Virus record (IMG/VR): IMGVR_UViG_3300042890_002246
Coordinates: 1-25,145 of that record
DNA from: a virus
Length of the DNA: 25,145 nucleotides
Reading direction: 5' to 3' (one strand)
The translations under genes and the position numbers were made by a program. The notes under the pieces were generated by a model. That model had not been told where the DNA came from, ran no database searches, and worked only from the letters and a program-made list of their open reading frames with translations. This document shows positions 3,042-24,564 of the stretch, piece after piece (positions within the stretch are counted from its first letter, which is position 1; each line of letters opens with the position of its first letter).

Positions 3042-4055
3042 TCAGTTGCTGGTTGTTAGTTTAACAACAGCAGCAGGACGACGAATCAAGTTCAAGAAGT
3101 TGGCTTCTGACTGAATCATGATTTCGCTGTCTTTTGGATCACGGTATGTGAACACATAAGCTTGCTCACCAATGGTGTTAACATGGCTGAACTTATTAGC
3201 AGGGCTAAAGTAAGTCTTGAACATGTCAGCAGTACCTTGTGGTAGCATGTAAGCTTCACCAGCAGGCATTAGAGCAGTACCATTGTAAGAACCACGGTAC
3301 TCAACGTACTCAACACCACCGTGAACGAACCGGCGATATACGCCAGAACCTAGACGATTGCGAAGAGGCTCTTGAGTGCTGGTGTAGTACTTGTAAGCTT
3401 CTTTTACGGTAGCGTGGTTGATTAGCTTACCGAAGAATGCTGGTGAGCATAGTACGATAATGTTGCTAACAACTTCACCACTTAGGATGTTGTCCTGAAT
3501 GTGAGCGATACCCTCTTCTGACTTAGCGTTTAGGTCAGTAGTGGAAGTGCCAAGAACGAAGTCAATGGACTTTTGGGTAACACCGAAGTCAGTGTAGAAG
3601 TTACCAGCTACAGTGCCATTAGGAGCGTAGATAGCGCCAGAAGTGATAGCATAGGCACGAGCAGCTTCTAGAGTCACAGAGTGATTCATACGGATGCGCT
3701 CTAGCTTACGAGCAATAACGGCAGCTTCGGTTTCGGCTTGATCAGCAGAACCGTAAGCGCGTTTACCTTGCACATCTTCAGGCTTAACACCGTCATCAAG
3801 TGGAAAGTGAGGAATAGCGAATGAACGTAGGGCACGGGTATCGCTCTTGTTTACGGAATTGCGCTCACCACGGATCTTGTCGGTAACTAGACCTAGAGTG
3901 CCTTCGCTGGACTCAACGGTAACGCTGTGTTGAGCTACGCCTTCTTCAGAGAAGATGCCTAGTTCGTTGATTAGACCCCATTTATTAGGAACCAATAGAA
4001 GTTCTTCGGTGTAATCAACTAGCTCAAATGGTTTTTCAAAACTACGAGTTTGCAT
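3042..4055 (-). CDS. Major capsid protein (lambda gpE-like family)
   Basis: This 337-aa protein has the Phage_cap_E pattern: an N-terminal LVPNKWGLINELGIF segment with TVESSEGTLGLVTDKIRGE, the AIPHFPLDDGVKPEDVQGKRAYG motif near residues 80-105, a long helix (AAVIARKLERIRMNHSVTLEAARAYAI) and a C-terminal QSEANFLNLIRRPAAVVKL. The family builds the icosahedral shell with an HK97-like fold. Length is normal for the family (about 330-350). The decoration gene lies directly upstream and a strong terminator directly downstream, the typical arrangement of a highly expressed capsid gene. Ribosome binding site AAGGAAA. Compared with neighbouring genes it appears richer in GC-ending codons, consistent with high expression. 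Confidence 0.93.
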   Translation of the reverse strand: MQTRSFEKPFELVDYTEELLLVPNKWGLINELGIFSEEGVAQHSVTVESSEGTLGLVTDKIRGERNSVNKSDTRALRSFAIPHFPLDDGVKPEDVQGKRAYGSADQAETEAAVIARKLERIRMNHSVTLEAARAYAITSGAIYAPNGTVAGNFYTDFGVTQKSIDFVLGTSTTDLNAKSEEGIAHIQDNILSGEVVSNIIVLCSPAFFGKLINHATVKEAYKYYTSTQEPLRNRLGSGVYRRFVHGGVEYVEYRGSYNGTALMPAGEAYMLPQGTADMFKTYFSPANKFSHVNTIGEQAYVFTYRDPKDSEIMIQSEANFLNLIRRPAAVVKLTTSN

Positions 4056-4092: not shown

Positions 4093-4488
4093 TTATACTG
4101 CATCGTTGCAGTTAATACCTTTGGCTTCTAGAGCAGCGTATACGGCAGCTTTTTCAGCGTCTAGGTTGTAGGTAGCATCTAGGATTAGACCATCCTTGGA
4201 TACAGTGGCTGGACCTTTTACCAAGCATAGAACTTTGGTGTCGGTTGTAGCAGCAACAGTTTGTTCAACCATTACGATAGCATCAGCAACTGCTGAACCA
4301 TCTTCTGCAGTTTGTACGGCAATTTTGTACTTACCGCCAACGGTAACTTTACCTAAAACAGTGCCAGGAACTAGAGTAGCAGCAGTACCGTTATAAGTAA
4401 CGGCTAGGCGGCAGTAAGCAGTTTCAGGAAATAGTTCTTGTTTGACTACGTTAGAAAGACGTTTTGCTTCAGTGGCAATTAGTGGCAT
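4093..4488 (-). CDS. Head decoration protein (lambda gpD-like)
   Basis: A 131-aa Ala/Val/Thr-rich beta protein: YNGTAATLVPGTVLGKVTVGGKYKIAV, then DAIVMVEQTVAATTDTKVLCLVKGPATVSKDGLILDATYN. The 'l..GTVLGkVt..GKY' followed by 'a.ai.l......a..d....vlvrGpA.v....L' is the gpD-like head decoration pattern. Such proteins trimerise on the expanded shell and stabilise it against DNA pressure. It lies between scaffold and major capsid genes, as in lambda. Ribosome binding site AAGGAAA is well spaced. The C-terminus, DAEKAAVYAALEAKGINCNDAV, is the expected helical tail. Confidence 0.85.
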   Translation of the reverse strand: MPLIATEAKRLSNVVKQELFPETAYCRLAVTYNGTAATLVPGTVLGKVTVGGKYKIAVQTAEDGSAVADAIVMVEQTVAATTDTKVLCLVKGPATVSKDGLILDATYNLDAEKAAVYAALEAKGINCNDAV

Positions 4489-4509
4489 TTTTATTTTTCC
4501 TTAAATAAA

Positions 4510-4899
4510 TTATTTGGCTTGCTTGGCTTTAAGTAATTTTGCCACAGCAGATTCTTTAACAGCGGTTTCTTCTTGTGAAGAAGCACCTTTTTCTACGAAC
4601 ATGTCGGATTTTTCTACAGTAGCCATCATTGCCTCAATAGCAGTGACGAATGCAGTAAAGTCATCTTCGGATTCTAAGGATAGAGCAGCCTTTGCGATTG
4701 CTTCTACTTTGCTTTCGTCTTTCACGACAGCTTTGATTTTTTCGGTTTTTGCTTTATTGATAGCTTCTTTTTTCTCAGCTTCAAATTGAGCAATTGTATC
4801 AAGAGCTTTTTGTAGTTGCACCTTCTGCTCATCAAGAGCTTTTTGCACAAGTTCAAACTGAGCTTTTTCAACGGTTTCGACTTTTAATTCGTCATCCAT
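4510..4899 (-). CDS. Possible nested scaffold product (internal start at Met276)
   Basis: Inside the 404-aa frame, an ATG at 4899-4897 is preceded by GGAG with a 9-base spacer, a better site than expected by chance within a gene. Translation from it would give a 129-aa protein (MDDELKVETVEKAQFELVQ...) containing only the coiled-coil region. Phage lambda makes its scaffold Nu3 in the same manner from within gene C. The upstream portion would then be a separate or fused assembly factor. Whether it is used is inference from sequence only. Confidence 0.45.
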   Translation of the reverse strand: MDDELKVETVEKAQFELVQKALDEQKVQLQKALDTIAQFEAEKKEAINKAKTEKIKAVVKDESKVEAIAKAALSLESEDDFTAFVTAIEAMMATVEKSDMFVEKGASSQEETAVKESAVAKLLKAKQAK

Positions 4900-5724
4900 C
4901 TTAGATTTCTCCAATTCTATTTTGTTAACAGAGGCAGACACCCCTTCAATATTCTCAACGCCAGCGTTTGTTGAGGTATCATTACCGTCTGCAGAAGCAG
5001 CAGGTGCAGATTCTTGTTCTAGAGATTTCTTAATCTTAGTAAGTGTACTGGACTTGTGACCAACCAATGTTTCAGTAGGTTCACCATCTCTATAAATTCT
5101 AATCAGAGCAGCAGGATTTTCTGCTGTAGCATTAATACTAAACTCAGTACCGGGAACACCCAAAGTACCTTCAGTCATAACATGCTCAATCTTGCCCTTG
5201 GCTTTACCACCACTGGAGTTCCATTGAACCATGTCACCAGTTTTTGGTTTGTATGCTTTCTCAAGATCTTCAAAAGCTTTCTCAATCAAAGCCTGATCAT
5301 TGAGCATTGCAAGGAATTCATCTTCATCTAGTTCAGATAGTACAGATGATAATTTATCTGCTTCATTTGCTGCTTTAAGAATCTCGAAGGCTTCCATTCT
5401 TGATTCAATATAATCAGAGTAAGTTTCAGGTACATCTTCATTTTCTGGCATTTCAGGATACTCATAACCCATCATACGAGCTAGAATTTCTGCATCGTCT
5501 CCATACATGGAAAAGAACTTGCGAAGAAAATCAGGTAACTCCATAGTTACACGAACTTGCTGCATCTTTTGTACAAACTCTTCACTGAACTTATTACCTT
5601 TGAGTACTAATTTATAATCAGCACCAGAAGCGGGTCCACCTTGTTGTTTAGACACCAACGCAATGTGTGAACCTTCGCCACTAAAATCAATATCTGATAA
5701 TTTTCGCTTTGTTTTACGTACCAT
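4510..5724 (-). CDS. Scaffold-like head assembly protein with Tudor-like (DUF2945) insert
   Basis: The 404-aa protein has three parts. Residues 1-160 are acidic and helical, of unknown function. Residues about 161-228 (KTGDMVQWNSSGGKAKGKIEHV...ALIRIYRDGE) match the small Tudor-like DUF2945 domain. Residues about 265-404 are strongly charged and predicted coiled coil (AQFELVQKALDEQKVQLQKALDTIAQFEAEKKEAINKAKTEK), as in scaffolding proteins. Position between prohead protease and decoration/capsid genes supports a scaffold role: it would template shell assembly and be cleaved out by the protease. AAGGAAA is well placed before the ATG, inside the end of the GIY-YIG gene, which overlaps by 11 bases. 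An internal start at Met276 probably yields a separate short scaffold. Confidence 0.7.
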   Translation of the reverse strand: MVRKTKRKLSDIDFSGEGSHIALVSKQQGGPASGADYKLVLKGNKFSEEFVQKMQQVRVTMELPDFLRKFFSMYGDDAEILARMMGYEYPEMPENEDVPETYSDYIESRMEAFEILKAANEADKLSSVLSELDEDEFLAMLNDQALIEKAFEDLEKAYKPKTGDMVQWNSSGGKAKGKIEHVMTEGTLGVPGTEFSINATAENPAALIRIYRDGEPTETLVGHKSSTLTKIKKSLEQESAPAASADGNDTSTNAGVENIEGVSASVNKIELEKSKMDDELKVETVEKAQFELVQKALDEQKVQLQKALDTIAQFEAEKKEAINKAKTEKIKAVVKDESKVEAIAKAALSLESEDDFTAFVTAIEAMMATVEKSDMFVEKGASSQEETAVKESAVAKLLKAKQAK

Positions 5725-21404: not shown

Positions 21405-21481
21405 TGGTACAGCATACGGGACTTGAACCCATATTCCTACCTTGAAAGGGTAGTGTCCTAAACCTGTTAGACGAATGCTGC
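21405..21481 (-). tRNA. tRNA-Glu (TTC)
   Basis: Cloverleaf on the minus strand: acceptor GCAGCAT/ATGCTGT, D-stem GTCT/GGAC, anticodon arm CTACC-CUUUCAA-GGTAG (anticodon UUC), T-arm ATGGG-TTCAAGT-CCCGT, discriminator A and encoded CCA. All arms pair with only G-U exceptions. Confidence 0.9.
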
Positions 21482-21486
21482 GTGTT

Positions 21487-21562
21487 TGGTGCTGGATGAA
21501 GGACTTGAACCCTCGACCTACCGCTTACAAGGCGGTTGCTCTACCAACTGAGCTAATCCAGC
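21487..21562 (-). tRNA. tRNA-Thr (TGT)
   Basis: Canonical cloverleaf on the minus strand: acceptor GCTGGAT/ATCCAGC, D-arm GCTC-AGTTGGTA-GAGC, anticodon arm ACCGC-CUUGUAA-GCGGT (anticodon UGU), T-arm GAGGG-TTCAAGT-CCTTC, discriminator A and encoded CCA. First tRNA of the cluster, 11 bases after the zinc-ribbon gene. Confidence 0.95.
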
Positions 21563-22045: not shown

Positions 22046-22555
22046 TTAATCAAATAAGCAGTATTTACTTAGTATTTTGGAATATTTCAATTGCAGTTTG
22101 TTGAAAACCTTCTTGGCTATTACTACATCATTAATGACCAGCTTTCTATCCTTGTTTGATTCTTTCCAGCTTAGCACGTAGGAAAATACATCCGTTGAAT
22201 GCGGAGTCATTTTCAAAGCACCGAGTAAATTCCTAGATGCTTCTTTTATTTTATTAAAAACTACCTTTGATACTACAGCTAGATTTTGCAATCTGTAATC
22301 CGTCTTATCCAAGTTCTTGTGCAAAATAACTTTACCTTTTGGCAACTTCTCTGAAGTTATCAACTCCATAGCTACTTTGTTTGCTCTTAATTTTAATCTA
22401 GAACCATTTCTATAAAATATAAGATAGCCTTCTTCATCAGGAAATATCCTTCGGATTATCTTATTGTCCTTCATTGTATAGAATTCACCAAGAATCATGT
22501 CATAATGAATGAAACTGTTTATGCTATTTAAGCTCTGGGCTGTGTTAGTTTTCAT
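22046..22555 (-). CDS. HNH-like protein with eroded active site, 169 aa
   Basis: Residues 41-92 keep the HNH_3 frame (EEGYLIFYRNGSRLKLRANKVAMELI... KGKVILHKNLDKTDYRLQNLAVVSK), with H79, N81, R88 and N91-L92. However the usual D before the central H is L78, the N of 'dNR' is Y87, and the N-terminal 'vHR' His is replaced (RANKV). A C-terminal segment ending YSKILSKYCLFD resembles the DNA-binding tail of such proteins. It is therefore either a catalytically dead homing endonuclease or one recruited as a DNA-binding regulator; its place next to divergent promoters would suit a regulator. It has its own strong promoter and AAGGA ribosome binding site. Confidence 0.65.
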   Translation of the reverse strand: MKTNTAQSLNSINSFIHYDMILGEFYTMKDNKIIRRIFPDEEGYLIFYRNGSRLKLRANKVAMELITSEKLPKGKVILHKNLDKTDYRLQNLAVVSKVVFNKIKEASRNLLGALKMTPHSTDVFSYVLSWKESNKDRKLVINDVVIAKKVFNKLQLKYSKILSKYCLFD

Positions 22556-22576
22556 GGCAATCCTTTTAGTTAAACT

Positions 22577-22605
22577 ATCATACTACAAAATAATCAATTT
22601 GTCAA
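22577..22605 (-). promoter_or_regulatory. Strong sigma70 promoter for the HNH-like gene
   Basis: Minus strand: TTGACA (22605-22600), 17-base spacer, TATGAT (22582-22577), with the ATG about 22 bases downstream. It is arranged back to back with the plus-strand promoter at 22633-22661. Confidence 0.85.
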
Positions 22606-22632
22606 TAGCACAAGGATTATTAAAAATTACAC

Positions 22633-22661
22633 TTGACTTCACTACAACTTTGGTGTATAAT
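22633..22661 (+). promoter_or_regulatory. Strong sigma70 promoter of the putative large RNA
   Basis: TTGACT (22633-22638), 17-base spacer, TATAAT (22656-22661) on the plus strand; transcription would start near 22668. No gene with a ribosome binding site follows until 23431, beyond a terminator. A 7-base-arm palindrome AAAGAAC-TT-GTTCTTT at 22676-22691, just after the start, might be an operator, although it overlaps an RNA stem. Confidence 0.88.
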
Positions 22662-23139
22662 TGGTTTTGCTAGGGAAAGAACTTGTTCTTTAATTATAAT
22701 CGGTTGTTTCGGATAACCAATCTTTCCCTATCCCTTAACAGGTCATGCTAGGTCTGATGGATTTCAGACACACAAGTGATTCATAACTCTTCACTGCATG
22801 AAGCAAGTTTCAGTAGGTAATGCCTGAAGCAAGCACCTGACGACTGCGCCATTGTCGAATAAAGGGCCGTAAGGTAGTTCACTCTTGGGTGAATTGCAGT
22901 GACGGAAAAGGGCACATAGGTGGTTGCGTAAAAACCCTGCCTTTGTGTTGAACACTGCTGCAACGAATGCTTTAGCAACATTCTCGCAAGAACTTCAGGA
23001 TGATGCAATTTGTACTTTTGTGCATGCATTAAAAAATTATATCCTAAGCAAAAAATACCCTGTCTTTTAGAGCACTATTCAATAAATAAAATTGATTTAG
23101 TTCTCCTAAAAGGCAGTATTGTATTCTGCTTAGGATGAT

Positions 23140-23325
23140 ATCTTTAACTTAAGGTTAATTACTATTTTACTTATTATCTTTATTAAGTACTCTTAAGGTA
23201 TTAACCTTAGTATAACTGTGAGTTTAACCTAAGTATAAGCTAAGAGCTTTAACCTTAGTAAATATCTTTATTTATCTATTTACCTATCTATATTATATTT
23301 ATTTATATATTATCTTTATCTTAAG
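23140..23325. repeat. AT-rich tract with TTAACCTTAG repeats
   Basis: TTAACCTTAGTA occurs at 23201-23212 and 23249-23260, a variant (TTTAACCTAAGTATA) at 23223-23237, and inverted forms at 23148-23158 and 23192-23199. They can pair into nested hairpins in RNA. About 65 bases of almost pure A/T follow (23260-23325). The mix of short repeats and an A/T block also resembles a replication origin. No gene seen. Confidence 0.55.
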
Positions 23326-23329
23326 AGAC

Positions 23330-23365
23330 AACCCCTTGGTGAAAGCTAAGGGGTTTTTCTTTTTG
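23330..23365 (+). terminator. Strong intrinsic terminator of the putative large RNA
   Basis: AACCCCUUGG-UGAAAG-CUAAGGGGUU, a 10-bp stem (one G-U pair), followed by UUUCUUUUUG. It closes the transcript begun near 22668 and lies 10 bases before the next promoter. Confidence 0.93.
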
Positions 23366-23374
23366 TCTTTTCTA

Positions 23375-23403
23375 TTGACATAAGTAATCATTTATGCTAT
23401 AAT
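23375..23403 (+). promoter_or_regulatory. Consensus sigma70 promoter for the 92-aa / PhoH / ClpP operon
   Basis: TTGACA (23375-23380), 17-base spacer, TATAAT (23398-23403): perfect in both boxes. Start near 23410, followed by AAAGGAG and the ATG at 23431. Confidence 0.93.
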
Positions 23404-23430
23404 TTGTTTTATTATTTATAAAGGAGTATT

Positions 23431-23709
23431 ATGACTGAATTAGTTAAACGAATTGAAACATACAGCTTGTATGAGTTTTGTGATAAAGTGCAAGAAGCTA
23501 TTAAAGAAGGTTGGGTCTTTGACTTTGAATCAAATGAAAACTTCCCTACTGCATTTGGTTCATTGATTGTAGCAGGTATGGTTAAAGTCAAGGTTGAAGA
23601 AGTTCCTGAAGAAAACGAAGATCAACTTGAACTTGACCTTGGGATTTCATACGAAGAAGCTCAAGGTACAAAACCAGAGAAGACTCGCAAAGTTAAGGTT
23701 TCTAAATAA
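23431..23709 (+). CDS. Unknown acidic protein, 92 aa
   Basis: I do not recognise this protein. It reads MTELVKRIETYSLYEFCDKVQEAIKEGWVFDFESNENFPTAFGSLIVAGMVK, then an acidic stretch (VEEVPEENEDQLELDLGISYEE) and a basic tail (KPEKTRKVKVSK). The first half looks like a small alpha-beta domain ('f.d.vqeAik.GW.f......P..fG'), the second half disordered. It is led by a perfect promoter and an AAAGGAG site, so strong expression is likely, perhaps early. First gene of the plus-strand operon with PhoH and a ClpP-like protease. Confidence 0.85.
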   Translation: MTELVKRIETYSLYEFCDKVQEAIKEGWVFDFESNENFPTAFGSLIVAGMVKVKVEEVPEENEDQLELDLGISYEEAQGTKPEKTRKVKVSK

Positions 23710-23787: not shown

Positions 23788-24564
23788 ATGAAAAGAAGAG
23801 AAAAAACACAGGATCTAAGAGTTCAAAAAGAAAAGTTCGCTAGAGTTCAATTCCCTGCATTAGTACCCCTTAATGACAGACAATCTCAGTTGCTTGAAGC
23901 TCTTAAGTACAACTCTTTGGTTGTTGCGAAAGGAAGCGCAGGTACAGGTAAAACTCTACTAGCTTGCTGGCATAGTGCTAAGAAGTTGCACTACGGTGAT
24001 ATTAAAAAGGTAGTTCTAATCCGAGCTTACCAACCCCTAGCAGGAAGAAGCATTGGTTTCCTCCCAGGTACTGCTGAAGAAAAGCTAATTCCTTTTTATC
24101 AACAAATGCTTGATTACTTTGAGGATTACTTAGGTAAAGCTAGCACGGAGATTCATGTAAAGAACAAAACTATAGAAATCTGCAGCCTAGAAACTATCCG
24201 AGGTAGAAGCTGGAATGATGCAATAATTATTGTTGATGAATCACAGAATCTTTATGTTCCTGAAGTTCAAGCTTTAGTTACTCGCGTAGGGACTAACTCC
24301 CAGATTGTATTTTGCGGAGATAACACAGGTCCACAAACTGATGTTAAAAAAGGTATTGATGGTCTAACATATCTTGAAAAAGTCTGTACTAAATACAGCA
24401 TTAGTGACTGCAGCTTTACTACTTTCGAAAGAGAGCATGTGGTTAGAAGTGGATTAACTAAAGAATTTGTTATTGCATTTGAAAATGAACTAGAGGAAGA
24501 AATCAAAGGTACTGCTATCGTAAAAGAAGTTCAAAGTATCTCAACCAAGAAGGGAAGCAGATGA
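23788..24564 (+). CDS. phoH: PhoH-like ATPase
   Basis: The 258-aa protein has a Walker A GSAGTGKT (49-56), the PhoH-typical VVLIRAYQPLAGRSIGFLPGTAEEKLIPFYQQMLD (75-109), RGRSWNDAIIIVDESQNL (138-155, Walker B) and IVFCGDNTGPQTD (173-185). PhoH proteins are RNA/DNA-linked ATPases common in phages; their role in infection is unsettled, with phosphate-stress or RNA-handling proposals. Start is fixed at ATG 23788, as no ATG, GTG or TTG lies between it and the in-frame stop at 23758. Its ribosome binding site appears to act through a hairpin. The stop overlaps the ClpP-like start (ATGA), coupling the two. Confidence 0.93.
   Translation: MKRREKTQDLRVQKEKFARVQFPALVPLNDRQSQLLEALKYNSLVVAKGSAGTGKTLLACWHSAKKLHYGDIKKVVLIRAYQPLAGRSIGFLPGTAEEKLIPFYQQMLDYFEDYLGKASTEIHVKNKTIEICSLETIRGRSWNDAIIIVDESQNLYVPEVQALVTRVGTNSQIVFCGDNTGPQTDVKKGIDGLTYLEKVCTKYSISDCSFTTFEREHVVRSGLTKEFVIAFENELEEEIKGTAIVKEVQSISTKKGSR

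Follow-up and report, generated by a model that had tools for sequence, protein, structure and literature searches.

The window analysed here is a viral contig of 25,145 nt (25 kb; IMG/VR record IMGVR_UViG_3300042890_002246), which matches Limnohabitans phage DC31 (PQ492658) best, with PhoH proteins 80% identical. At the locus, tRNA-Glu and tRNA-Thr are followed by a gene for a small protein, an HNH-like gene, the RNA described below, a 92-aa protein gene and phoH (Table 1). The two tRNA genes lie at 21405-21562, and the end of tRNA-Thr (21562) is about 1.1 kb from the RNA. A divergently oriented site resembling a promoter (22605-22577) belongs to the HNH gene. In the related metagenomic contig L003, phoH is followed by a ClpP-like protease gene. 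The window is DNA of a freshwater phage and contains a previously unrecognised RNA gene, ~470-700 nt long, that has no protein product and whose transcription is predicted.

Table 1. Features of the RNA unit, its neighbours and the other contents of the site; positions are those of the window unless a contig is named.
Feature	Position	Strand	Basis or remark
HNH endonuclease-like gene	22046..22555	-	PF13392 E 1.5e-6; phrog_99; synteny; left bound of cassette
Sigma-70 promoter, TTGACT-17-TATAAT	22633..22661	+	11/12 match; predicted transcription start ~22668
5' hairpin	22671..22730	+	10-bp outer stem enclosing inner hairpins
Conserved 5' domain, helices P2-P7	22734..22862	+	model R1 and pair changes; core motif ACACAnGTGnTTCATAACTCTnCAC
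Middle domain, P8-P12	22858..23010	+	compensatory changes, window vs L003
3' long hairpin, P13-P15	23041..23136	+	3' strand CCTAAAAG(G)CAGTATT
AT-rich stretch, GC 0.21	23141..23325	+	TTAACCTTAGTATAA repeated directly, iteron-like, at 23201, 23224 and 23249, plus inverted copies
Intrinsic terminator	23330..23363	+	11-bp stem at 23330-23355, then T-rich tail TTTCTTTTTG
Separate promoter of next gene, TTGACA-17-TATAAT	23375..23403	+	12/12 match
92-aa protein of unknown function	23431..23709	+	first gene of phoH module, right bound of cassette; synteny
PhoH-like ATPase gene	23788..24564	+	phrog_170 E 1.7e-68
A-type element	L012 ~5040-5215, L002 ~4480-4655, ~20 other loci	plus favoured	not in Rfam
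Rep-like winged-helix protein, 131 aa	L005 5182-5577	-	phrog_8102 E 6e-15; resembles phage replication initiators

The segment 22633-23365 is laid out like a transcription unit, with a promoter, a GC-richer core and a terminator. The promoter and stem terminator that the original prediction had framing the unit are both present, as are the two 10-bp stems it had singled out (22671-22680/22721-22730 and 23041-23050/23127-23136). It had also described a core richer in GC than its surroundings, which agrees with the values measured (0.45 vs ~0.2-0.3): GC content is 0.277 at 22556-22667, 0.453 at 22735-23010, 0.285 at 23011-23140 and 0.205 at 23141-23325. Its large RNA of ~700 nt is, as a single transcript of 701 nt, a prediction; the structured, ornate part extends from 22668 to ~23140, and the final 180 nt (23141-23325) consist of AT-rich repeats. 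The most constant stretch of the RNA is ACACAnGTGnTTCATAACTCTnCAC, which forms hairpin P5 with an 11-nt loop.

Four copies of the RNA are known, in the window, in L003, in a distant contig (L038) and in the isolated Curvibacter phage P26059A (KY981271). L003 was reached by a search with the PhoH protein and has the RNA at the same place, with a promoter (3114-3142) and a terminator (3787-3812) matching those of the window; the two promoters have identical -35 and -10 hexamers but diverged spacers. Model R1, a covariance model built on the 5' domain (129 nt), matched L038 at 3467-3572 on the minus strand (39.6 bits, E 2e-7 in 0.7 Mb), with a 10/12 promoter at 3610-3582 on the same strand. The L038 copy, used as a DNA query, led to P26059A by direct similarity (78% over 54 nt), where R1 matched KY981271 77263-77406 (7264-7407 of our extract L138) with 35.4 bits and E 5e-8. 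This copy occupies an unannotated gap at 77.26-77.70 kb beside phoH, and an 11/12 promoter (L138 7226-7254) stands 10 nt before its core. A promoter is thus at the matching place in 4/4 copies.

The copies differ at their ends. In place of the 5' hairpin of the window, L003 has a shorter, simple hairpin; the 5' hairpin is absent from L038 and P26059A, in which the conserved domain starts ~10 nt past the -10 box. The 3' strand sequence of the long hairpin is also found in P26059A. Downstream of the RNA, L003 and P26059A have AT-rich repeats of the TAACCTTAGTA type that resemble those of the window. A model of the middle domain (R3) found the two close copies (window and L003) and did not recognise L038 or P26059A. 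Wider searches added no member: blastn of the window RNA against phage records and plasmids gave nothing real, exact and gapped DNA patterns run on viral contigs gave L003 and two chance coding matches, and a first scan of GTDB genome contigs with such patterns gave none. A later GTDB pattern scan gave 45 matches, which were rejected, as they look protein-coding (many lie in one conserved Sulfurimonas gene) and were insignificant with the RNA profile. Model R2 found none in 398 genomes of one GTDB family, under strict filters and with no positive control, which makes this negative uninformative.

The folding energy of 22665-23365 is -198.8 kcal/mol, compared with -150.5 +/- 6.3 for 20 shuffled sequences (z -7.7), and the core 22668-23140 alone gives z -4.5. 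The P26059A and L038 copies alone fold only slightly better than shuffles (z -1.5 and -2.3). Covariation in homologues, which the original prediction had set as its own test, was found. The RNAalifold structure of the window and L003 has 9 pairs with changes on both sides and 9 with a change on one side, and no broken pair; among 78 pairs of the helices listed by hand, 7 had changed on both sides and 5 on one side, and 1 was broken. Against column-shuffled alignments the same two sequences scored z ~-7 for the plus strand, compared with -4.3 for the minus strand. In the four-sequence alignment of the 5' domain (129 nt), 115/115 scorable cells pair and 19/32 pairs show changes on both sides, compared with 1-5 pairs and 27-42% paired cells in slid controls. 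These pair counts are flattered, because the alignment was fitted to the structure of the model; chance is nevertheless made very unlikely by the size of the difference from the slid controls, by the separate match at the DNA level and by the common location. Support for the middle domain comes entirely from the close pair window/L003, and that for the 3' hairpin from the same pair and the short sequence match in P26059A, so that in this family of four members the middle and 3' domains depend mainly on two close sequences.

We conclude that this is almost certainly a real family of structured RNAs. The comparisons show that the plus strand from 22668 to ~23140 represents a new family of putative phage non-coding RNAs with a conserved secondary structure, and folding kept by paired mutations in four phages looks like the mark of a new family of large phage RNAs. 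The proposal that a phage has, where the coding strand switches, a real, large and structured unit for a non-coding RNA is supported.

The site of the RNA is constant and its contents are not. In 30-odd relatives the order is HNH gene (minus strand), cassette, 92-aa gene (plus) and phoH (plus), and the cassette between HNH and phoH is one of three: this RNA (B type), a different small structured element (A type) or a Rep-like gene. The B type was found in the four phages named above, always with the HNH gene on one side and the phoH module on the other, and it occurs in both orientations. The RNA points to phoH in the window and to HNH in P26059A and L038, so the cassette has flipped between the window and these two. 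Most relatives have the A type, an element of ~170 nt with the motif TTCAGGCTACATACCCCTAGACTA; its alifold z is -4.2 on the plus strand and -2.0 on the minus strand, with modest covariation (one helix was entered one column off). That the A-type element shares its ancestry with this RNA was considered and rejected, there being no similarity by eye and no match of R1 or R2 at A-type loci. The Rep type was found in eight relatives (L005, L006, L008, L009, L011, L016, L017 and L018). On the PhoH tree the B type falls on three separate branches, which needs at least three changes; judged from this tree, the B-type RNA has been exchanged, or repeatedly lost. The constant HNH/phoH site, the two orientations and the other contents in relatives show that the unit behaves as a swappable cassette, one with its own promoter.

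Beyond the HNH gene, relatives carry tRNA islands of 5-7 genes (L012 2960-3865, L005 2799-3868 and L003 838-1465), and the window only two tRNA genes. Matches to int-alpA RNA (RF02996) about 1 bit below the gathering score were seen on the minus strand of L003 (1982-2049) and L012 (2257-2325), and a group I intron (RF00028, 64 bits) lies near the tRNA region of relative L034 (2691-2899, minus strand).

As to function, we favour, at a probability of roughly one half, a trans-acting RNA expressed during infection that would be like GOLLD and ROOL in kind and a member of neither. Host RNA polymerase would transcribe the RNA early in infection from the host-type (sigma-70) promoter, the RNA would fold into a compact multi-domain form, and it may then act in trans, either bound to a protein of host or phage or through self-assembly of the kind shown for GOLLD and ROOL. 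Both of these form homo-oligomeric nanocages, and the ROOL transcript is very abundant. The unit also resembles phage morons, which are independently transcribed inserted cassettes, usually protein-coding: it has its own sigma-70 promoter and terminator, is inserted between conserved genes and is exchangeable among relatives, and in contrast to most morons it encodes an RNA.

An origin-linked RNA is a rather unlikely alternative. The transcript from 22668 would run into the AT-rich iteron-like repeats and, like RNA II of ColE1 plasmids, prime or control replication in cis. This is suggested by the allelic exchange with Rep and iterons and by the TTAACCTTAGTATAA repeats downstream. Like ColE1 RNA II and other plasmid origin transcripts, the unit has a promoter, a structured RNA of ~0.5 kb and then AT-rich repeat DNA, and its site is taken in relatives by a Rep-iteron module. 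Three iterons of 22-23 bp lie beside the Rep-like gene in L005 (5111-5178), similar repeats were seen by eye in other Rep-type loci, and among the 15 records searched (window and L003 fragments included) the Rep-like protein occurred in 5/5 of the Rep type and 0/10 of the others. However, the Rep-like protein is small (131 aa), lacks a helicase-loading part and could be a regulator; repeats are almost absent from L038; and no antisense regulator like that of RNA II was found for the new RNA. Moreover, a cluster of DnaA boxes (TTATCCACA) is located elsewhere, a few kb beyond phoH, with five perfect boxes in ~120 bp of DC31 (L084 20233-20350), and like clusters in L003 (8544-8650), L006, itself of the Rep type (~10414), L024 (~10654), L030 (~8104) and L034 (~11623). 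In the cassettes of the window and DC31 there are only single DnaA-like sites, with one mismatch. GC skew reaches its minimum at a different strand switch (DC31 ~35 kb, P26059A ~56 kb), although GC skew in these genomes follows coding direction. The cluster is probably the DnaA-dependent origin of this phage group, and its presence elsewhere led us to downgrade an origin role; together with the position of the GC-skew minimum it makes us prefer a trans-acting RNA. Since sister phages carry either Rep and iterons or the RNA and repeats at one site, the RNA may hold the job of an initiator or regulator. That a new class of large RNA has replaced a protein replication initiator in this way is a doubtful, more speculative extension.

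A cis-acting leader, that is, a promoter-proximal RNA that modifies RNA polymerase in the manner of HK022 put or EAR, or that switches the downstream genes, we regard as improbable. The start of the conserved domain so close to the -10 box in L038 and P26059A would fit it. In these two the RNA points at the HNH side, and searches for a terminator past the RNA found none in P26059A and, on the strand of the RNA, none in L038, so the transcript there could run into the next gene. The terminator of the window stands between the RNA and the next gene, where read-through could matter. On the other hand, the orientation flips make the downstream gene vary among members, a strong separate promoter serves the next gene in the window and in L003, and known elements of the put and EAR kinds are several-fold smaller than this RNA. 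The changing orientation to the neighbours, and a terminator that precedes the next promoter and gene in the window, argue that the RNA is not the leader of one particular gene.

The original prediction had compared the RNA with GOLLD and ROOL and left open a divergent member or a new class; of these the first is now very improbable. GOLLD is a large ornate phage RNA, near tRNA genes in many phages, that is conserved universally in its 3' region, and ROOL is a phage or prophage RNA of ~0.6 kb with high structural complexity and an independent transcript; the function of both is unknown (PMC12286853). The new RNA is similar to them in size, intricacy, phage origin and possession of a promoter, and in the window it also lies near tRNA genes. 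Unlike GOLLD, it has its strongest conservation at the 5' end, and the P26059A copy has no tRNA inside or adjoining it. The nearness to tRNAs that had been pointed out thus holds for the window and not for P26059A, where the tRNA genes, at ~61 kb, are far from the RNA copy (PMC5964084). Searches for membership were all negative, and we rejected it. The models RF02032 (GOLLD) and RF03087 (ROOL), both confirmed in the Rfam library under these numbers, were run on the window and seven related records, and neither matched at E<=10; the RF03087 test is weaker than cmscan, because nothing matched in control genomes either. Rfam 15 at gathering thresholds found only the two tRNAs in the whole window, and relaxed cmscan of 22500-23500 and of the P26059A and L038 copies gave chance-level matches only. 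A new class, the second option, is borne out by the lack of any Rfam 15 match for the window, L038 or P26059A copies, and a literature search found no description of this RNA.

Chance folding or a minus-strand protein-coding region is hardly credible: the longest ORF (minus strand, 22781-23029, 82 aa) is 59% identical to a 68-aa ORF in L003, but its substitutions at codon positions 1/2/3 (16/9/13) lack the third-position bias of the neighbouring phoH (20/12/100) and so mark it as not coding, a single-base gap halfway along it shifts the frame between the window and L003, Pfam, PHROG and PADLOC gave no match, L038 and P26059A have no frame of comparable length, and compensatory changes run through the 5' domain. 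The unit is accordingly without a plausible protein, as had been proposed.

To our knowledge few classes of large phage RNA exist, and the structures of GOLLD and ROOL are striking. The present RNA adds a further, independent large-RNA family to those of phages, with strong covariation. As P26059A is a cultured lytic phage (host IMCC26059), expression, deletion and structure of the RNA are directly testable, and because the site holds a Rep-like gene or another small structured element in other phages, nature itself provides the comparison from which the role of the site can be worked out.
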